From a virus: DNA of 44,579 nucleotides. Of this stretch, positions 3,937-37,800 are shown piece after piece. Where the stretch lies: positions 1 to 44,579 of the IMG/VR virus record IMGVR_UViG_3300036985_003015. The stretch is one strand, 5' to 3'. How positions within the stretch are numbered: the stretch's first letter is position 1; each line of letters opens with the position of its first letter. Made by a program: the position numbers and the translations under genes. The notes under the pieces are model-generated. The model was not told where the DNA came from and did no database searches. It saw only the letters and a list, made by a program, of their open reading frames with translations.

Positions 3937-4304
3937 TTACCACCACACATAAGCATTGGAATACGTGGGTCACGACCGGCCGCCATAGCTGGACCCTTAA
4001 CAACGCGCTTTTGAACCATCTCTTCGCGCTGCATACGAGGTGTTTCGGTCTTTTCGTGCTTCATCATCGCTGATTTAGACGCATAACGCTCACCAGTGGC
4101 CTTTTCCATCACGCTGCCGCCTTTTTTAAGCGCTGTCAATGGAGCGCCCTTGTGCATTGCTTTTTCGTGCTTATGGATTGATTGTGCGATCATCTTTTTG
4201 TCTTGTTTCATGTCAGCTTTAACGTTGCCACCTTCGGCGTAGTTTTTGCCTTTCATCTTGCCGGCTGAGCCAAAATCAAACTCTTTTACATATGTACATG
4301 CCAT
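3924..4304 (-). CDS. Small Lys/Met-rich basic virion-associated protein with GG motifs
   Basis: A 126-residue, strongly basic protein with many Lys, Met and charged residues and little predicted fold. It carries three copies of a short Gly-Gly motif: YAEGGNV near residue 23, LKKGGSV near 61 and MCGGKV at the C-terminus. Related motifs occur in the large internal virion proteins of this genome. Small, basic and located among head and tail genes, it could be a packaged DNA-associated or internal head protein. I do not recognise a named family. ATG 4304 follows GGGGCAATATC, a usable ribosome binding site. Confidence 0.65.
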   Translation of the reverse strand: MACTYVKEFDFGSAGKMKGKNYAEGGNVKADMKQDKKMIAQSIHKHEKAMHKGAPLTALKKGGSVMEKATGERYASKSAMMKHEKTETPRMQREEMVQKRVVKGPAMAAGRDPRIPMLMCGGKVKK

Positions 4305-6189: not shown

Positions 6190-6795
6190 TTAGATTGACG
6201 CTGTAGCTGCTTTGTAAGCGTGTTCGTTGATACGAACATACGCAACAACATAAGCATCTGTTAGCGATTGGTTAATGTTAGTAGCGAAGCCAGTGATTTG
6301 GAACTGACCAGTACCTGAACCTTCGATAGCGGCTAAAGACGCTGTTGAAAGACCTGTACGGGTAGAACCACCTGGAGCTGCAAAGCCAGTAAAGTCACAT
6401 TGTTCACCTACGGAAGTTTGAACTGAATCAGTACCAGCAGTACCTGGATTTGTGTATTGAGCTTCAAACAGTGTTTCTGGATCATCGAACACATAAGCAT
6501 CGATTTCAGTAGCAGTACTACCACCAATCCAGTATGGAGAGATAGAAGGCTTGCCAGTTGAATCACGATACTCAACACCAGCTAAAGTACCAAGCAATGT
6601 TACGCCTGACACTGTACCTGTACGTGTACCATCTGATGTACCAAGTTGAACTGTACCAGCGTCTACTAATTTCACGGGATCATTTGAAAAAATGTTCGTG
6701 GCGTAGGTGCTAGCAATTGTATAAGCTTTCGGACGAATCTGACCACTGTTGTGGAAAGAAGGGCGGAAGCCAAAAGGTGCGCTTGTTGAAGGCAT
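6190..6795 (-). CDS. Conserved head-associated virion protein
   Basis: A 201-residue protein beginning MPSTSAPFGFRPSFHNSG, rich in Thr, Gly, Ser and Ala, with many short beta-like segments and no helical core. I recall proteins starting PFGFRPAYHPSG immediately upstream of capsid genes in environmental podovirus-like contigs. They are usually unannotated or called structural. It lies 13 bases before the capsid ATG, so the two are probably made together. A ribosome binding site (AAGGAGTAATTAAG) supports ATG 6795. A decoration or head-completion role is plausible but unproven. Confidence 0.7.
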   Translation of the reverse strand: MPSTSAPFGFRPSFHNSGQIRPKAYTIASTYATNIFSNDPVKLVDAGTVQLGTSDGTRTGTVSGVTLLGTLAGVEYRDSTGKPSISPYWIGGSTATEIDAYVFDDPETLFEAQYTNPGTAGTDSVQTSVGEQCDFTGFAAPGGSTRTGLSTASLAAIEGSGTGQFQITGFATNINQSLTDAYVVAYVRINEHAYKAATASI

Positions 6796-6822
6796 CTTAA
6801 TTACTCCTTAAAAAAAATAAAG

Positions 6823-7365
6823 TTAGGTCAAGTCAAATTGAGCTCGACCAGCATTTTTCCTCAAGTCCTGTGTACCATCACCTTCATATAGACGACTGCC
6901 GGTAGTTTCTGCATCGCGTTTAAGGAACTCGGAAGTATCCGTCAACTTTTCTAGCTCACGCAAAGGTGCATCGTGGTGCGCCTCTTGCATGTACTTCTCA
7001 TAAAGAGAAAGTGGTAGCTTGAATGCGAGCATTTCGTTAACCCCAATAAAGCCAATCCATTCACCTGTTTTAACAGATGTTGATTCCCAGCCAGGAATGT
7101 CTTCTGGCTTAATGGCTTCGTAACCCAACCGCATACGCATATTGATCGTATCTCGTGGGTTTGTAGTGGTCAACCAGCATACGTGGTATCCAGGTATTTT
7201 TGGTAGATCAGGAAGTGAAGATTGAAAGAACTGTTGCCGAAATATATCTAGACGGTCTGCATCCGAGATTTCACGATTCTCCGTGACAGCACGATTTTCC
7301 ATCGCGCGATCCCCACGACCATCACCTACACTTTTCTTTAAACGTTCATCATTTGTATTTGTCAT
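6823..7365 (-). CDS. Conserved hypothetical protein of the head operon
   Basis: I choose ATG 7365 (MTNTNDERLKKSVGDG) over the ATG 12 bases upstream because GGAG lies 6 bases before it. The 180-residue product has a charged, probably flexible first 40 residues, then a compact part containing PGYHVCWLTTTNPRDTINMRMRLGYEAIKPEDIPGW. It ends in a charged helical tail with an LYEGDGTQDLRKNAGRAQF segment. It lies between scaffold and capsid genes, where assembly chaperones or head-completion proteins are often found. I recall related proteins in environmental phages but no function. Confidence 0.65.
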   Translation of the reverse strand: MTNTNDERLKKSVGDGRGDRAMENRAVTENREISDADRLDIFRQQFFQSSLPDLPKIPGYHVCWLTTTNPRDTINMRMRLGYEAIKPEDIPGWESTSVKTGEWIGFIGVNEMLAFKLPLSLYEKYMQEAHHDAPLRELEKLTDTSEFLKRDAETTGSRLYEGDGTQDLRKNAGRAQFDLT

Positions 7366-7388
7366 TACTTGCTCCATTCAGCAATTGA

Positions 7389-7438
7389 TTAGAATTATGT
7401 TCTAATTTTTATAAAAAGAAAACTACTATTTTTTAACT
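7389..7438. repeat. Hairpin plus second copy of the 20-nt gene-end repeat
   Basis: Bases 7419-7438 repeat exactly the 20-nt element at 3917-3936, here overlapping the scaffold stop codon. Next to it is a 6-bp inverted repeat, TTAGAA (7389-7394) and TTCTAA (7400-7405). Each copy is therefore followed, in the direction of transcription, by a short AT-rich hairpin before the next gene. Confidence 0.5.
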
Positions 7439-8365
7439 CTTGTTAGCACGATCGTATTCAGCGTACTTTTTAACGTAGCGCTGACGCAATACTGGATCAT
7501 CCCAAACGCCTGCCTCTTGTAAGGCTGCCTTGCGCTCAGGGCTAATGTAAACCTCTTTGCGTGTCGATACTGGCGCATGCTCACGACCAGAACCTACAGC
7601 GGGACCGCCTGTTGGCTTGCGTGCTGCCTTAAACTTCTCTGGCAAGCGACGCTTAACTCGATCGTGCAACTCATCCCAATATTCTTCTGAGCGGGGGTCA
7701 TAACCTTCCTGCGCTAGTTTATTGTCGATGGCAAGCACAATAGCCGAGTCCTCGTCCTTACCTTGAGGGTCGTACCAACTGTTCTCTTCCATAAACTCTT
7801 TAGCATAATGCACGACCTCACTATCAACCTGTGGCTGACGTGGCGCTTGTGCTTGCTGAGTTTGTTGTTGCTTGTACTGTGAGAGTTGTTGAGCCTTAAG
7901 TATTGCCTGATCACGGTAACGCATTGCTTGCGCAACGTCCTCACCATTACCAGCCTCAACCGCACGAGCGATAATCTTCTCGGACGTTTCAACCTCACTT
8001 ATGGCCTGTTGAATTTGTTGATCCAACTGGCTTAAGTTACTTTGTTGGGTGTGTGTCTCAACAGCACCAATACGACGCTCTAGCTCATCGTTACGGCTTC
8101 GTAAAAAGTTAAGCTCAACTTTGTCACGACCGATGGCCTTATCGCGGCGCTCTTTGCGTTCTTTTTTCTCTAGTCGACGGCGCTCACGAATTGCTTCACG
8201 GTCGTCTTCACTACTAGCATCGCCCTCTTCTTCGGATGATTTTAAGGTACTCTCCTCTTCTTCATCGTCTTCGTCAAGCGGATTGTCAACGGCTACATAC
8301 TCCGCATCCTTTAGTTCGTCCTCATCGTCTTCGATGATTGCCTCAACTTCTTTTTCTTTTGCCAT
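7433..8365 (-). CDS. Capsid scaffolding protein
   Basis: A 310-residue, highly charged protein. Its first 55 residues are very acidic (runs of Asp and Glu), followed by a basic Arg/Lys block (RERRRLEKKERKERR). Then comes a coiled coil (about 80-175) with heptad-like ELERRIGAVE and SQLDQQIQQAISEVE and a Gln-rich linker. The C-terminal part contains an AKEFMEENSWYDPQG motif that I recall from scaffold-like proteins of environmental podoviruses, ending in a short basic tail. Size, helical character and location between portal and capsid genes all fit a scaffold that directs procapsid assembly and then leaves. ATG 8365 follows AAAGGAGCTAGGC. Confidence 0.8.
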   Translation of the reverse strand: MAKEKEVEAIIEDDEDELKDAEYVAVDNPLDEDDEEEESTLKSSEEEGDASSEDDREAIRERRRLEKKERKERRDKAIGRDKVELNFLRSRNDELERRIGAVETHTQQSNLSQLDQQIQQAISEVETSEKIIARAVEAGNGEDVAQAMRYRDQAILKAQQLSQYKQQQTQQAQAPRQPQVDSEVVHYAKEFMEENSWYDPQGKDEDSAIVLAIDNKLAQEGYDPRSEEYWDELHDRVKRRLPEKFKAARKPTGGPAVGSGREHAPVSTRKEVYISPERKAALQEAGVWDDPVLRQRYVKKYAEYDRANKS

Positions 8366-27198: not shown

Positions 27199-27892
27199 TT
27201 GTTTTTGTTTTACCTTCGGTATATACTTACTTTTCTATTATCCAAGAGTAAGATTATTATGCAAATAAACGCAGAACTATTAAAAAAATTAGTAAATTAT
27301 GACGAAGTCTCTGGTGAAATGAGGTGGTTAAATCGACCAGTTGAAATGTTTAAAACAAAAAGTGCTCACGCTGGTTGGAATAAACGATTAGCTGGCAAGA
27401 AAGCAGTAACAATTGATGGCAAAGGATATTTGGTTGTTTCTATATTTTGCAAAAGATATTTAGTTCATCGGCTTATATGGCTTTATGTTTATGGCAGGTT
27501 TCCTAAAATAATAGATCACATTAATGGTATTCGCACAGACAACAGACTTGTTAATTTACAAGAAGTGACTAATCAACAAAATCACATGAATCAAAAACGA
27601 TCGTCAAAAAACACAAGTGGTGCAACAGGCGTATATTTAAATAAAAAGCGCAATATATGGTGCGCGCAAATTAAATTTAATGGCAATACTTATCATATTG
27701 GGTCTAGTAAAAATTTTGATGAAGCGGTGCTTATGCGAAAAAATGAAGAAAAAAAATTAGGTTTTTCTGAAAGGCATGGTAATGAGATTTAAATCAGAAA
27801 TGCATAATTATCAAAATAACGCTGTTGATTTTATAAGAGTGCAAAAACGTTGTCTTCTTGCAATTGGAATGGGTTGCGGAAAAACATGTATT
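27199..27892 (+). mobile_element. AT-rich homing-endonuclease insertion with flanking conversion tract
   Basis: From the base after the VRR-NUC stop to about 27892 the DNA is much richer in A and T than either side. It includes the endonuclease gene and the first ~39 codons of the helicase, with codons such as AGA, ATA and GGA that are rare in the rest of that gene. The change back is sharp, just after the Walker A codons. This looks like an insertion with co-conversion of the flank. Confidence 0.65.
27259..27792 (+). CDS. HNH homing endonuclease with AP2 DNA-binding domain
   Basis: ATG 27259 (MQINAELLKKLVNYDEVSG) is preferred; the 20 residues upstream look non-coding. The 177-residue protein has an HNH core, HRLIWLYVYGRFPKIIDHINGIRTDNRLVNLQEVTNQQN (about 70-108), and a C-terminal AP2-like domain, SGATGVYLNKKRNIWCAQIKFNGNTYHIGSSKNFDEAV. 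This is the standard layout of free-standing phage homing endonucleases, which cut a cognate allele and are copied into it. It sits between VRR-NUC and helicase genes that are usually adjacent, and overlaps the helicase start by 17 bases. No intron or intein is visible. Confidence 0.87.
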   Translation: MQINAELLKKLVNYDEVSGEMRWLNRPVEMFKTKSAHAGWNKRLAGKKAVTIDGKGYLVVSIFCKRYLVHRLIWLYVYGRFPKIIDHINGIRTDNRLVNLQEVTNQQNHMNQKRSSKNTSGATGVYLNKKRNIWCAQIKFNGNTYHIGSSKNFDEAVLMRKNEEKKLGFSERHGNEI

Positions 27893-31965: not shown

Positions 31966-31979
31966 AAAGGGGAACGACA

Positions 31980-32204
31980 ATGACGTGTTCTGGTAACTGT
32001 GAGCAAGGCCGTAGGTGCGACTGCAAAAAAGACGCAAGCGTAGATCGAGCAACCGTAATTGTAGTGACGTTGCTACTTTTGGCTATTTTTTCCATGTGTT
32101 TTGGGTTTTATAACCTTTTAAGTGGAAACGCTGGGCAAGAGTGTGCCGTGACTTTGCAGTTCAATAATAATGTTAAGGCCACGTACATAGGGAAGACAGT
32201 GTGA
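31980..32204 (+). CDS. Small membrane protein with Cys-rich N-terminus
   Basis: A 74-residue protein. The N-terminus, MTCSGNCEQGRRCDC, is Cys-rich and basic and may bind metal. It is followed by a membrane segment, ATVIVVTLLLLAIFSMCFGFYNLL (about 24-47), and a short soluble tail with one Cys. Small phage proteins of this build are common in environmental genomes but unassigned. AAAGGGGAACGACA precedes the ATG. It is the last gene before the palindrome-rich control region. Confidence 0.65.
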   Translation: MTCSGNCEQGRRCDCKKDASVDRATVIVVTLLLLAIFSMCFGFYNLLSGNAGQECAVTLQFNNNVKATYIGKTV

Positions 32205-32238
32205 TCGATTTGTAGCTACATCTACTACGATCGTAGTT

Positions 32239-32270
32239 ATTTTGTATATATTACTTTTTTGAGTTTAATT
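32239..32270. repeat. Direct repeat, copy 1 (32 bases)
   Basis: ATTTTG, then TATATATTACTTTTTTG, A, GTTTAATT. It matches 32394-32428 apart from a three-base insertion and a few changes. AT-rich, with two 6-base T-runs conserved in register. Spacing between copies is 155 bases. Confidence 0.55.
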
Positions 32271-32393
32271 CAGTTTAGTCGCGACTATATTGTAAAGTGG
32301 TTTAATAAAGTCGCTTTGGCGGGTAAGTAACTATGCTGTAAACCGTTGGTGCAACTGGGTTTGAAGTACATTGAGTGAGCATTGATTGCGGAT

Positions 32394-32428
32394 ATTTTGG
32401 CGCATATATCACTTTTTTGCGTTTAATT
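32394..32428. repeat. Direct repeat, copy 2 (35 bases)
   Basis: ATTTTG, then GCGCATATATCACTTTTTTG, C, GTTTAATT. It is the second copy of the element at 32239-32270. The repeats could be iterons at an origin or sites for a regulator; neither is a coding sequence. Confidence 0.55.
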
Positions 32429-32505
32429 ATTTGTGCAGAACTAAACTCATGGTTTACAAACAGACAAAAATGTAAACCATGGGTTACATAGTAACAAATT
32501 TGTTA

Positions 32506-32577
32506 CTATTTGTTCATAACGTACATAGTAACTTCAAAGCCAAAACGCATTTCGGTAGCTGCTGGTGATGTCCACAT
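32506..32577 (-). CDS. pqqA: PqqA-like PQQ precursor peptide
   Basis: A complete 24-codon minus-strand frame (23 residues plus TAG) starts at ATG 32577 with AGGAG 8 bases upstream. The peptide begins MWTSPA and contains RFGFEVTMYV, then NK. It is the same length as the commonest bacterial PqqA and shares, in register, Met1, Trp2, Pro5, Ala6, Arg11, Gly13, Glu15, Val16, Thr17, Tyr19 and Asn22. Glu15-x3-Tyr19 is the pair that PqqE, with PqqD, links to start pyrroloquinoline quinone synthesis. No pqqB, C, D, E or F is in the window, so host enzymes would have to mature it. Its stop codon forms one edge of the 20-bp palindrome at 32489-32508. It runs opposite to the surrounding early genes. Biochemical role is inferred. 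Confidence 0.85.
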   Translation of the reverse strand: MWTSPAATEMRFGFEVTMYVMNK

Positions 32578-32687
32578 GATAAATCTCCTGTTTATTAAGT
32601 GTACACATTAGCGTGTACATGTACGAATTATGCTCTTTTTTAGACATGACACCATAGAGAAAAGCATTATTTTAAATTAGGAACGAT

Positions 32688-32879
32688 ATGACGGTACATA
32701 ATTTATTTGGAGGCATGCAGACTTACTTTCAACACATGATTGGTAAGACCATCGAGGAGGTAGCTATTTTTGATGGTGAGTTGGTAATATTTTTAGATGA
32801 CAAATCCGAGGTGTGCATCTTTGACGCTGAGTTTGGGCTTGCCATGCAGATTAACGAACGACCTAAATTAGATGACTAG
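32688..32879 (+). CDS. Small hypothetical protein
   Basis: A 63-residue protein just after the control region. ATG 32688 has TTAGGAACGAT upstream. The core, IGKTIEEVAIFDGELVIFLDDKSEVCIFDAEFGLAMQI, alternates hydrophobic and polar residues like a small beta barrel. I recall similar short proteins of the form GKxIxxVxIxDxELxIxLDD in other phages. Function unknown. Confidence 0.6.
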   Translation: MTVHNLFGGMQTYFQHMIGKTIEEVAIFDGELVIFLDDKSEVCIFDAEFGLAMQINERPKLDD

Positions 32880-32888
32880 GAGAACGGT

Positions 32889-33056
32889 ATGAAGATAGCA
32901 TTACTTGGTGAGTTGATTGAGCAAGACGACGGCAGTGCGATTGCTGAGCTAGACGTAGACAACGAGGGCAAGCTGTACCTTATGCAGTTGGGTTTTGAGG
33001 CGTTGCTCATGCGAGGCATAGAGACAATGAAGGCGGAGCGTGATGATAGACGATAA
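32889..33056 (+). CDS. Small acidic protein (55 residues)
   Basis: A 56-codon frame from ATG 32889 (AGGAGAACGGT upstream) to TAA 33054-33056. The product (MKIALLGELIEQDDGSAIAELDV, then MQLGFEALLMRGIETMKAERDDRR) looks like a small beta-hairpin plus helix and is acidic, with a basic C-terminus. It overlaps the phosphoesterase start by 14 bases, which supports co-translation. No family recognised. Confidence 0.6.
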   Translation: MKIALLGELIEQDDGSAIAELDVDNEGKLYLMQLGFEALLMRGIETMKAERDDRR

Positions 33057-34200
33057 TTTAGCGCAGTTCGCCACAGACAAGCAGTGGCAGTACTACACCA
33101 AGGCCTGCGAACTAGGATCTCAGCGCCAAGCTGCCAAATTCTTTAATGTTACAGCCACTGTGGTTGATGTTGCTGTCAGAAGTTTAAAAAGTAAGGCAGC
33201 ACTAGCAGGATATGCGCCCAACCATGACATGACCAGGGTTGCGCCAGAGCCGTTTGTAGTTAGAGGCGTGTCGACTTACTACAATGCCGAGGGGAAGGCG
33301 TCTGGCCAGTGGGTTAAGACGCGGCTAAGCGATGCAAAGCTACAGGAAATAATGCTTGAGACGGTCGAGGCCATGAAGGAAGAGATACCTCGTGTGACGA
33401 TGCTGCAGCCGCCACCACTTGGCAACGAAAACCTTTTAAACTGCTACGTCATCACTGACTACCACATGGGCATGTTAGCCTGGCACGAGGAGTGCGGAGA
33501 GGACTGGGATCTCAAACTAGCAGAGGAGTTGGTTGTAAAGTGGTTTGCGCAAGCGATTCATTTGTCGCCTAACGCGGATACGGGTGTGTTTGCTCAACTG
33601 TCAGACTTCTTACACTTTGATGGCATGGACGCGGTAACGCCGGCCAGTAAGCACTTATTAGACGTAGACACGCGCTTTGCTAAGTTGGTTCGATCGTCTA
33701 TCCGCGTGTTGCGTACAATAATCGATATGCTGCTTGCCAAGCATCAAAAGCTGCATGTTATAATGGCCGACGCGAATCATGATCCGGTCAGTCAGATATG
33801 GCTACGTGAGTGGTTTAGCGCAATGTATGAGAACGAACCAAGGGTGACAGTAGACAAGTCACCAAGCCCGTACAACGTGTACGAGTTTGGTAAGGTGGTG
33901 TTGTTCTTCCATCACGGCCACAAGCGTAAGGTAGCTAACGTATCAGAAGTATTCGCCGGTAAGTTTAGGGAAATTTTTGGTCGCACAAAACATGCATACG
34001 CTCACATGGGCCATCTGCATCACATCGATGTAAAAGAGAACAACCTCATGATAGTGGAGCAGCACAGAACACTAGCGCCATCGGACGCTTACGCGGCCAG
34101 GGGCGGATGGTTAACAGGCAGAGACGCCAAGGTCATATCGTACGACAAGAGGTACGGTGAGGTTTCAAGATTAACAATTAACTCGGACATGCTCAAATGA
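33043..34200 (+). CDS. Metallophosphoesterase with N-terminal helix-turn-helix
   Basis: ATG 33043 follows AAGGCGGAGCGTG; the GTG one codon earlier is possible. The 385-residue protein has a helix-turn-helix region (QWQYYTKACELGSQRQAAKFFNVTATVVDVAVRSLK, about 14-50). It then has a calcineurin-like phosphoesterase domain with metal ligands in ITDYHMGM (about 142), SDFLHFDG, MADANHDPV (about 244, in place of the usual GNHD), HHGH (about 289) and HMGHLHHID (about 325). The HTH suggests DNA-guided action; the catalytic domain could act on nucleotides, RNA ends or DNA ends. This combination is one I recall in phages, without a known substrate. It lies in the P3 early unit. Confidence 0.82.
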   Translation: MIDDNLAQFATDKQWQYYTKACELGSQRQAAKFFNVTATVVDVAVRSLKSKAALAGYAPNHDMTRVAPEPFVVRGVSTYYNAEGKASGQWVKTRLSDAKLQEIMLETVEAMKEEIPRVTMLQPPPLGNENLLNCYVITDYHMGMLAWHEECGEDWDLKLAEELVVKWFAQAIHLSPNADTGVFAQLSDFLHFDGMDAVTPASKHLLDVDTRFAKLVRSSIRVLRTIIDMLLAKHQKLHVIMADANHDPVSQIWLREWFSAMYENEPRVTVDKSPSPYNVYEFGKVVLFFHHGHKRKVANVSEVFAGKFREIFGRTKHAYAHMGHLHHIDVKENNLMIVEQHRTLAPSDAYAARGGWLTGRDAKVISYDKRYGEVSRLTINSDMLK

Positions 34201-34271
34201 CAGACGAACAAATGCAAGAACTAAGAGAATTACTTTTGAAGGCCCAACGTAAACAAGGAGAAACAAAATGA
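34197..34271 (+). CDS. Tiny helical peptide (24 residues)
   Basis: A 25-codon frame joined to the phosphoesterase gene and to the next gene by ATGA overlaps at both ends (ATG 34197, TGA 34269-34271). The peptide MTDEQMQELRELLLKAQR continues to GETK and is one helix. The exact double coupling suggests real translation, though a tiny linker frame that carries the ribosome through to the next gene is equally possible. Confidence 0.4.
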   Translation: MTDEQMQELRELLLKAQRKQGETK

Positions 34272-34507
34272 GTGGATACACAACCGCAGCAACATTAATC
34301 GCCGACGCAATGCACGAGGCGTATCAGCAAGGTACCAACCTAGACGAGATGTTTGCCGTCCTGTGCGTGCAACGTGAGGTCACCTCCGTGCACTTAGCTC
34401 AGGCAGCGTTGCATCAACAGGCCGTGTTAGCCAAGCAAGCACAAGATCAAGCTGACAAGGCTGCCTTAGAAGAAGACATGAAGGAGACTGAAGATGGCAC
34501 CAACTAG
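34268..34507 (+). CDS. Hypothetical helical protein
   Basis: A 79-residue protein, ATG 34268 after AAGGAGAAACAAA. It looks wholly helical: TTAATLIADAMHEAYQQGTNLDEMFAVLCVQ, then an Ala/Gln/Lys-rich coiled segment (LAQAALHQQAVLAKQAQDQADKAALEEDMKETED). Its 3' end overlaps the next gene by 14 bases. No named family. Confidence 0.6.
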   Translation: MSGYTTAATLIADAMHEAYQQGTNLDEMFAVLCVQREVTSVHLAQAALHQQAVLAKQAQDQADKAALEEDMKETEDGTN

Positions 34508-34646
34508 AGACGAACTTGTTTTAAGTTTTATGCAAGCGTTAGCAAGTAACCCTGAGCTGCTAACTCAAACTAAAACTAATTACGCCGAGCGCGTTATTGG
34601 TTTTGCAAACGCCTTGGCGGATGAGTACCTAAAAAGCTTGGGATGA
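34494..34646 (+). CDS. Small helical protein (50 residues)
   Basis: A 51-codon frame from ATG 34494 (AAGGAGACTGAAG upstream) to TGA 34644-34646, coupled by ATGA to the next gene. The product (MAPTRDELVLSFMQALASNPEL, then YAERVIGFANALADEYLKSLG) is helical and may be a small phage-conserved domain. Function unknown. Confidence 0.6.
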   Translation: MAPTRDELVLSFMQALASNPELLTQTKTNYAERVIGFANALADEYLKSLG

Positions 34647-34834
34647 TAAACCTGCAACAACTAATTGACGACTGCCGATTTGTTGGGATGGAATTACCTG
34701 AAAAGTTAAGCGAAAGTGATTATGAGGTACTTTTTGCAATTCAGGCCGTCGTGGTACTACAAATTGGCAGAAAACAGCTCTGTACGAGCGATAATTTATA
34801 CACAGTTAATGCTACGGCATTAGAAACAAACTAA
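34643..34834 (+). CDS. Small hypothetical protein, last of the P3 unit
   Basis: A 63-residue protein whose ATG overlaps the preceding stop. The sequence (MINLQQLIDDCRFVGMELPEK, then VLFAIQAVVVLQIGRKQLCT) is helical with a hydrophobic stretch that might form one membrane or buried helix. It ends inside a strong bidirectional hairpin. No family recognised. Confidence 0.55.
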   Translation: MINLQQLIDDCRFVGMELPEKLSESDYEVLFAIQAVVVLQIGRKQLCTSDNLYTVNATALETN

Positions 34835-34875
34835 ATCCCGTCTACGGCTCTAAAAATAGCCTTGACGGGATTTTT
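34833..34875. terminator. Bidirectional terminator between P3 unit and late internal-protein genes
   Basis: A perfect 10-bp stem, AAATCCCGTC (34833-34842) and GACGGGATTT (34864-34873), encloses a 4-bp inner stem (GGCT/AGCC) and is flanked by U-runs (ATTTTT on the plus side). It sits between convergent genes and should stop transcripts from both directions. Confidence 0.85.
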
Positions 34876-34889
34876 ATATCAAAATAACG

Positions 34890-37800
34890 TTATTTCTTAG
34901 GTAACTTGCTTATTTTTGACTTCATTGCCTTGGCGGCATACTTTAGCCCAGACTTAATAGGTGTTTGCACACCGACTAGGTTAAGAAAATCTAAGGCTCG
35001 AATGTCACCGTATGGATTTTCGTGCATCATGCCACCGGTAGCTGAATCAGGTACCCACTTGTTGCCCAATACTGCGCTAGGCATTCCAGCGGTAGTATAG
35101 TCATACATTGCCTCAGGCATTTCACCAATTAAAAAGTCACCGACATCTAAGTTGCTACTCTTCGGATAGAGCACGCTCTCGTCAAATGCTGGGCTACTAT
35201 TTAAAGCGGCTCTTAAGTTTTCTAAACCTTTAGATGTAAGACGACCTGCACCACCAAGGTACTTGTCAGCTAGTCTGTCTCTTTGCGCAATCATGTTGCG
35301 TACAACATTGGCCTTATCTGAAATAACAGGCTGAGTCATCTCGCTGTTGCTATCGTCTAGTCTGTGACCATAGTATTCAGCTGCAGAAACTTCTCCGCCT
35401 TCATCGTAGCCCTCTACCATACCGCCTTCTGCATAGCCTGCTTTTTGCAAGTTGGTCAACATCTCTTCTGTGATTAAGTTTGATGGAGCGTAGCCACGGG
35501 TAAAGTCCATAACTCCAGGTGCTCTACCTTTAGCCTCTGTGAAGCTTTTAATAAAATCATTGAGCACAATCTCCCTTGGCGCAGGTTTAAAATACACACC
35601 TAAGTCTTCGCCAGTTAAAATTGTTGGAAACGCTGGGTGTAAGTCTGGGCGCTCTAACATTTCACCACTTAGGGTAAACATTCTGTTGCCCAATGAACCT
35701 GTCGGAGCATCAATTAAGTCTGGGTCTGTAGTTCTAGCAATTAATTTATCGTAGTCAATAATTTGACTTTTTTTACCACCCACGCCAATACCGCCAATAA
35801 CGTCGGCAACTGCCGCTCGTTTATCAAACGTGTCTATTGCGTTATTGAACTTACGAGACGTAATGTCAAAATTTTGTGGGAATAATGGGTTGCCCTTTTT
35901 ATCTACTGTATTTATTAATCTTAAATTCATCATGTCTAACAACTCAGGATCTAAGTTACCTTGTCTGGCAGACTTACGAAAGTCGTTAATAATGTTATCA
36001 AAAACCATTTGTCCTGATTTGTGTTGAGTAGGTGAACCTAGCATTGGTATAAATATTGTTTGCCCCTCTGATCCCCTCTTAGCTGAGTTAATTAATGTCT
36101 TAGCAACCCCAGGTGTTTTTACTGCCCAGACAGCACCAACATCACCGTAAGCAGGGTCAACGTGTTGCAAGCCAGAGAAACCAGGCCCACCTAAATAGCC
36201 ACCACCGACCTTTTGACGATCAGCTTGTGTAATCCCTACGGTTTTAGCTTCATGTTCACCTAACACTTCGGATAATTTTTTTAAGCCTTTATTTGCTTTA
36301 TCTGCAAGAATAGTAACGACCTTACCACCAGCGGCGTAACCAGGTGTTTGTTCTGGTTCTCTACTGTCACGGTAGTAGTTTAGAGCAGGGGCTGCGAGTG
36401 ACGTTAAGCCACCAATAACTTTAAGGCCTGCGCCAACTGGACCAATAGGTGGAATCATAGACATTGCACCGCCAAGGGCACCCACACCACTGATTGCTGC
36501 ACCAGGGTAGTCACCTTGTTTAAAGCGCTCACCAGCCTCAACCAAATCTAAACCTGAAGCGGCACCAGGTAACATAGACATGCCAGGTATTTTGCTTAAG
36601 TATCGAACAATGTTTGTGCCAACACCAGGTGCTTTCTTAGCGGAGGCTTTAGCGTAATCTTCTTTAGCGATGTCTAAACTGGTTTGTGCCGCAGTCTTAC
36701 CAGACGGGCCTCTTTCTGTTAGGTTGCGTAAGCGATCCGCCTCTTTTTGAGCGACGCTCTCAGCCTTGTCAGCGGCCTTGATTAAGCGTTGGTGCTCTGC
36801 CTCAGCGGCAGCCAACTCTTTTTGAGCAGCGATTTGTTCTGGGTTATAGACAGACGCACCGGCATACTTGTCAGGGACAATTAGGCGTGACTTTTGTGAG
36901 TAGCCTGGACCGGCAGTCTCAGTGCCCTTGCGCACAACGTTAGCCTCGTGAACCTCGCCCATGACGTTAGCGTGACGCATTGCGCCAGAGCCTAGGCCAC
37001 CTTGTTGTGTCACGCCACCTGGTGTAGTCTTAACAACCTCTTCTAGTACACCGTAACGGCGAGCGTTGTCTGTGGCCTTAGCCAAACGTTTTTCTGAAGC
37101 CAATTGAGCATCGCGTAAACGAGCTGCCTCTTTTACTGATGACTCAGCGGCGGTTGTTTGTATTTTAAGACGACCGGTGTGCTCACCCTCTTTGGCAGCG
37201 ACACGAGTCTCACCAGCGGCGATGCGTTTTTCTGCTGAGGCGGCTTGACGTTGAGCGGCCTTTTCACCAGCCTCTGCTTGTTTAATCTTAGCCTCGGTGT
37301 AAGCGCCACTAGCCAACCCGGCTGTTGCACCGGCACCTGCGCCAGCGGCCTCAGCCATAGCGTCACGCTCAAAGGCGGCTTTCTCTTCCGGTAATGGCTC
37401 AATGACCGGCACGTTGTCTGCATCAACGTCAGCACCTTTTGGTTTATACAGTCTGTCTAGCTGATCAACGTAGTTTAGTGTCTCAGTTGGGATGACGCTA
37501 ATGTCGTCTGTCTCTAAGAACTTGTCGGCAACACCAGGGCCAGCGTTGTAGGCAATACCTGCAACGTATGGGTCCTTGTACTTGTCGAGCATGCGCTTGA
37601 AATAAGTGACGCCACCATAGATGTTTTGATCTATGTTGTTCGGATCGACTTTTAACTCTTCAGCCGTACCGGGCATTAATTGCATTGGGCCTAACGCACC
37701 CTTTGGTGAGGCGCCAGTGTTGAAACGATTTTCAATGTGCGCAAGCGATAACATAAGATCAGGGTCAACGCCTTGTCTTTCTGCCTCATCAAAGATCTTA

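Follow-up and report, generated by a model that had tools for sequence, protein, structure and literature searches.

Lone pqqA genes in viral genomes as candidate auxiliary metabolic genes for PQQ precursor supply in methylotrophs

Introduction

Phage-borne pqqA is already known and is not new here, because it appears in two earlier studies, one from Lake Baikal in 2020 and one from a reservoir in 2026. For the Baikal Methylophilaceae phage populations VP_139 and VP_266, Coutinho et al. 2020 (PMC7678222) proposed, much as we do below, that phage PqqA assists the methanol oxidation of these hosts as the product of an auxiliary metabolic gene. Both Baikal populations encode methanol dehydrogenase, which is missing from the DNA analysed here, and pqqA was reported in VP_266 alone, with radical SAM proteins in VP_139, whereas in our case pqqA stands by itself (PMC7678222). 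The 2026 reservoir study listed viral pqqA, pqqD and pqqE (PMC13188868).

The host genes are similar in several respects. Methylophilaceae carry several pqqA copies and a single set of pqqBCDE (PMC4109929), and these copies, like the phage gene, encode a 23-residue peptide, lie away from pqqBCDE and have a hairpin 3′ of the gene. Stand-alone pqqA copies in Methylovorus are credited to Ge et al. 2015, as cited in PMC6520949. The host copies are chromosomal and multicopy, whereas the phage contributes a single copy, carried on viral DNA that replicates. Cyanophage psbA is a host-derived gene for a protein subunit that turns over, and it resembles phage pqqA as a host-derived gene that would refill a component consumed during infection. 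The two differ in their products: that of psbA is a protein subunit, whereas PqqA is a substrate peptide that is spent once per cofactor. Measured against the open PMC papers, the new elements are the breadth of viral pqqA, its enzyme-free form in each of 50 large records, the occurrence of the gene in the isolates infecting OM43 that were found, its absence from isolate annotations, the hairpins common to phage and host genes, and the pattern of gain and loss.

Results and discussion

A PqqA gene in the window and its signals

The window, that is, the whole 44,579-base virus record IMGVR_UViG_3300036985_003015, contains a frame of 23 codons plus a stop codon that runs on the minus strand from an ATG at 32577 down to a TAG at 32506, exactly as an earlier note on this DNA had read it. 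The encoded peptide, MWTSPAATEMRFGFEVTMYVMNK, scored above the cut-offs of both PqqA profiles, Pfam PF08042 (E = 1.7e-9, 37.9 bits, cut-off 21.1) and NCBIfam TIGR02107 (E = 1.4e-8, 34.4 bits, cut-off 20). The match is far beyond chance, and the PqqA identity claimed earlier from the letters alone stood up to the profile check; together with the homologues described below, it establishes the window gene as a genuine pqqA. Each of the residues that had been singled out (Trp2, Pro5, Arg11, Gly13, Glu15, Val16, Thr17 and Tyr19) is present, and Glu15 and Tyr19 lie at the E-x-x-x-Y spacing, the Glu and Tyr of which give rise to the PQQ skeleton in PqqA. A search for solved structures matching MWTSPAATEMRFGFEVTMYVMNK by sequence found none.

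The good ribosome binding site that had been claimed is an AGGAG located 7 nt before the ATG (32585–32589, minus strand). Farther upstream, a palindrome, TGTACAC-N6-GTGTACA (32600–32619), is shared with one of the two nearest relatives (L415) and missing from the other (L416), and could possibly be an operator of pqqA. A promoter scan upstream of the window gene returned one weak site that did not rise above shuffled sequences, and over the whole viral pqqA set promoter-like sites were slightly enriched (34% versus 26% in shuffles). Downstream, a first hairpin with perfect arms of 11 + 11 nt starts within the stop codon (32488–32509, minus strand) and is kept in both L415 and L416. A second hairpin, with 15-nt arms that are 93% complementary and without a T-run (32444–32485, minus strand), probably serves as a transcript end or stabiliser. 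The two hairpins together have a folding energy of −26.4 kcal/mol (z −4.1), and no intrinsic terminator with a T-run was found 3′ of the window gene.

Breadth and conservation of viral pqqA

IMG/VR was surveyed with three degenerate DNA pattern scans for PqqA-like frames, which yielded at least 269 contigs with PqqA in at least 197 distinct contexts, on contigs spanning 4 kb to 365 kb among the matches listed. Trp2 and Pro5, which no pattern forced, were present in 197 of 197 contexts among the matches listed. Glu15 and Tyr19 were retained in 120 of 120 of the matches listed from a scan that left both codons free; loss of either residue in related phages, which the earlier note held would tell against its reading, was thus not seen. 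For codons not forced by the search, pN/pS was 0.24 in the EMR clade and 0.44 overall, so that the viral gene displays the conservation under selection expected of a phage auxiliary metabolic gene. The peptide MWTTPAATEMRFGFEVTMYVMNK is the commonest viral form, occurring in at least 31 viral contigs among the matches listed.

The signals around the gene recur across the viral set. AGGAG precedes the gene in 110 of 168 non-redundant contexts and a shorter form of the site in a further 49 of the 168 (1.4% and 13%, respectively, in shuffles). The 60 nt around and after the stop codon fold with a median z of −2.5 in viral genes, 60% falling below −2 compared with 10% at a control position; for host genes, the median is −4.2, with 89% below −2 compared with 3% at the control. 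These folding signals and ribosome sites indicate that the phage unit consists of a ribosome binding site, the frame and a hairpin, as in the hosts. Strong hairpins 3′ of pqqA in phage and host alike might suggest that the locus has another job, acting as a peptide signal or a regulatory RNA to which the PqqA sequence is incidental. However, the constraint tracks codons: third positions vary freely, and positions outside the gene are near-random except for the ribosome site. The hairpins belong to the normal pqqA gene, because host pqqA has them too, and another job of this kind is very unlikely.

Other viral PqqA clades, with sequences such as DMRFGFEITMYIANR and MKWETPxYxDIRFGFEVTMYINNK (for example in L014, L044, L098 and L042), are unlike the PqqA of Methylophilaceae, and the phages that carry them probably infect other bacteria that make PQQ. 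The gene also occurs on contigs of jumbo-phage size (L041, 356 kb; L385, 365 kb; L387, 231 kb).

Cultured phages carry pqqA without annotation

A translated search for the PqqA peptide over 50,697 phage records placed the gene in cultured phages of OM43 bacteria. The PqqA peptides of P19250A and MEP301 are 95.7% identical to that of the window, as is that of a spring podovirus; the corresponding values are 91% for Venkman, 83% for MEP401 and MEP402 and 73% for the four Melnitz isolates. Among pqqA-bearing isolates, the genomes range from 35 to 142 kb, and the record taxonomy gives Zobellviridae and Kyanoviridae, the rest being without assignment. Two records labelled Acinetobacter phage MD-2021a (CAKLQF020000010, L009; CAKLQH020000055, L010) were set aside because they hold a complete pqqABCDE operon, with polyphosphate kinase alongside in CAKLQF020000010, and look like host chromosome. 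We attributed a match in Escherichia phage ERS-1 (E = 10) to chance.

In the isolate records examined, pqqA is never named: it is either unannotated or lies beneath a hypothetical gene, as in the Melnitz genomes and the spring podovirus; this hypothetical gene is on the opposite strand in the two cases inspected. The suspicion that gene finders easily miss a gene of this size is thus borne out, pqqA being either left out or covered by a false antisense gene, and annotation overlooks a widespread metabolic gene. The gene goes unmentioned in the papers describing MEP301 (PMC8024684) and MEP401/402 (PMC10580990), and in the Melnitz paper PQQ appears only as a medium ingredient (PMC9004378). The antisense hypothetical genes lie at 3961–4056 of L008 and 2067–2195 of L002, both on the minus strand (Melnitz and spring podovirus, respectively).

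Absence of PQQ enzymes and the presumed host

The window encodes a terminase large subunit, a DNA polymerase, a primase, a SNF2-type helicase and an exonuclease, so that its pqqA, a metabolic gene derived from a host, lies on a genuine phage genome; the gene likewise occurs in complete genomes of isolates. Profile searches of the window found no pqqB, pqqC, pqqD, pqqE or PQQ alcohol dehydrogenase, in agreement with the earlier statement that it holds no other pqq genes. Across the window and 49 other large virus records with pqqA, no pqqB or pqqC was found, and neither pqqD nor pqqE exceeded its cut-off in any; the same models match in host genomes, which served as the positive control. One 72-kb pqqA-bearing record also encodes a PQQ-dependent alcohol dehydrogenase of the methanol/ethanol family, as the Baikal phages do. 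In this record (L056, IMGVR_UViG_3300025120_009955), the dehydrogenase gene spans 34049–35731 (608 bits in all) and lies about 6 kb from pqqA at ~41911.

The best matches to the window terminase and polymerase come from phages that infect other hosts, at ~49% and ~46% identity, with no Methylophilales phages among the best matches listed, and no phage record matched the right half of the window by megablast. The pqqA gene itself is identical to a Methylotenera oryzisoli copy at 66 of 69 nt. The GC content of the window (49%) falls between those of Methylotenera and Methylophilus and far above that of OM43 (35%), which points to a freshwater or sediment member of the Methylophilaceae as the probable host; the tetranucleotides weakly favour Methylotenera-like or Methylopumilus-like DNA over that of marine OM43.

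Among 100 Methylophilaceae genomes sampled, all carried pqqA and 97 carried at least two copies (mean 4.4, maximum 12), and MWTTPAATEMRFGFEVTMYVMNK is identical to the host peptide seen most often in this sample. Of ten genomes examined for pqqE, eight had a single match over the cut-off, one had two, and one, a 0.9-Mb single-cell assembly, had none. A methylotroph host that makes PQQ, as the earlier note proposed, is consistent with a presumed host family that has pqqE and, in 100 of 100 genomes, pqqA. The pqqBCDE genes are thus absent from the phage and present in this presumed family, in which stand-alone pqqA is normal.

The absence of other pqq genes from the phage would also suit a decoy that ties up PqqD and PqqE, so that PQQ synthesis drops and methanol oxidation is shut down; in principle, PqqD could be titrated by surplus peptide. 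However, one would expect a blocker to have lost or changed one of the reacting residues, Glu15 or Tyr19, whereas both are kept in every case by the phage peptide, which resembles host PqqA or matches it exactly. The hosts themselves have up to 12 pqqA copies, and the presence of pqqA in a phage with its own methanol dehydrogenase fits supply. Inhibition is very unlikely because the peptides of many phage copies do not differ from host PqqA at all, and, on these sequences, supply is favoured over blocking because the phage peptide often equals that of the host and always keeps Glu15 and Tyr19.

Proposed function of the phage gene

These observations suggest that pqqA of the window is an auxiliary metabolic gene standing by itself, which would provide the host PqqBCDE enzymes with additional consumable PqqA and sustain methanol dehydrogenase, a reading to which we assign a probability of roughly three in four. 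Expression, host processing and benefit to the phage are steps that we infer from sequence. During infection, host enzymes could persist even if the phage stops host gene expression; the phage gene, predicted to be expressed, would add PqqA peptide, which host PqqD, PqqE, PqqB and PqqC together with proteases would mature, its Glu15 and Tyr19 becoming PQQ. The output would keep the PQQ-dependent methanol dehydrogenases of Methylophilaceae supplied. Each PQQ uses up one PqqA, and the enzymes turn over many times. Since PqqA is consumed one to one and the host enzymes are reusable, peptide supply alone could sustain PQQ synthesis.

In Gluconobacter cell-free extract, added PqqA gave rise to PQQ, and a stand-alone pqqA copy of a methylotroph is among the most highly expressed (PMC9851590). 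PqqA supply may nevertheless not be limiting, given that, in Gluconobacter, overexpressing one gene at a time raised PQQ most with pqqB, next with pqqA and less with the others (work cited in PMC7936290). More tentatively, and at somewhat less than even odds, a lone precursor peptide, unaccompanied by any maturing enzyme, could be among the commonest metabolic genes of methylotroph phages, acquired repeatedly by phages of different kinds because supply of the precursor, rather than of the enzymes, limits cofactor and energy in infected cells.

If the proposed role is correct, PQQ precursor supply would limit how well phages grow in methanol oxidisers, bacteria that matter in lakes and coastal seas, and a gene of 69 nt would provide an easily measured handle on this supply. 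The idea is directly testable because cultured host–phage pairs with phage pqqA already exist (MEP401/FZCC0133, Venkman/H5P1 and Melnitz/H5P1).

Gain and loss among related phages

Comparison with close relatives revealed that pqqA of the window lies in a variable block (31969–34196) that also holds small ORFs and a phrog_704 exonuclease gene (33040–34200, plus strand); in L502, a close relative, this 2.2-kb block is swapped for ~0.8 kb. The near relatives L415 and L416 carry pqqA at the same site and on the same strand as the window. In contrast, L495, L496, L497, L502 and L509, the helicases of which are 85–95% similar, lack pqqA across their whole records, and in phages with the neighbouring exonuclease, pqqA lies upstream, downstream or elsewhere, or is absent. 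The expectation of the same gene at the same place in related contigs therefore held for L415 and L416 and failed for other close relatives, and fixation of pqqA at one site in this lineage is ruled out by its absence or other placement in relatives. Because these relatives with similar helicases do without the gene, pqqA appears dispensable in the lineage of the window, or host-dependent there. As read from the sequences, the pattern is one of gain and loss, as expected for an auxiliary gene whose benefit is confined to certain hosts.

Such turnover, with several insertion sites, would also be produced by a passenger, that is, a neutral host fragment acquired by accident; acquisition would be easy, as the hosts hold many copies and the unit of ~150 nt is compact and self-contained, with its own hairpin. 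Neutral fragments should decay, however, and the frames are intact in 197 of 197 contexts among the matches listed, a count in which badly decayed copies are invisible because the search patterns demand a PqqA-like core. The invariance of Trp2 and Pro5 and the predominance of synonymous change likewise argue against neutrality, as does the occurrence of pqqA in cultured phages as unlike as Zobellviridae, Kyanoviridae and those without assignment. We therefore consider a neutral passenger unlikely, and retain the supply of PqqA to the host enzymes as the preferred reading.

Other insertions distinguish the same genomes. Between the polymerase and helicase genes, the window carries an HNH endonuclease gene (27199–27792, plus strand), and in L495-like relatives that lack it, 27200–27892 is replaced by ~0.1 kb; the HNH gene is probably a mobile homing-type insertion. 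In L496 and L509, ~1 kb of extra sequence (6755–7748 in each) splits the DNA polymerase gene at a point corresponding to 26926/26929 of the window, and this insert is perhaps an intron or intein with an endonuclease.
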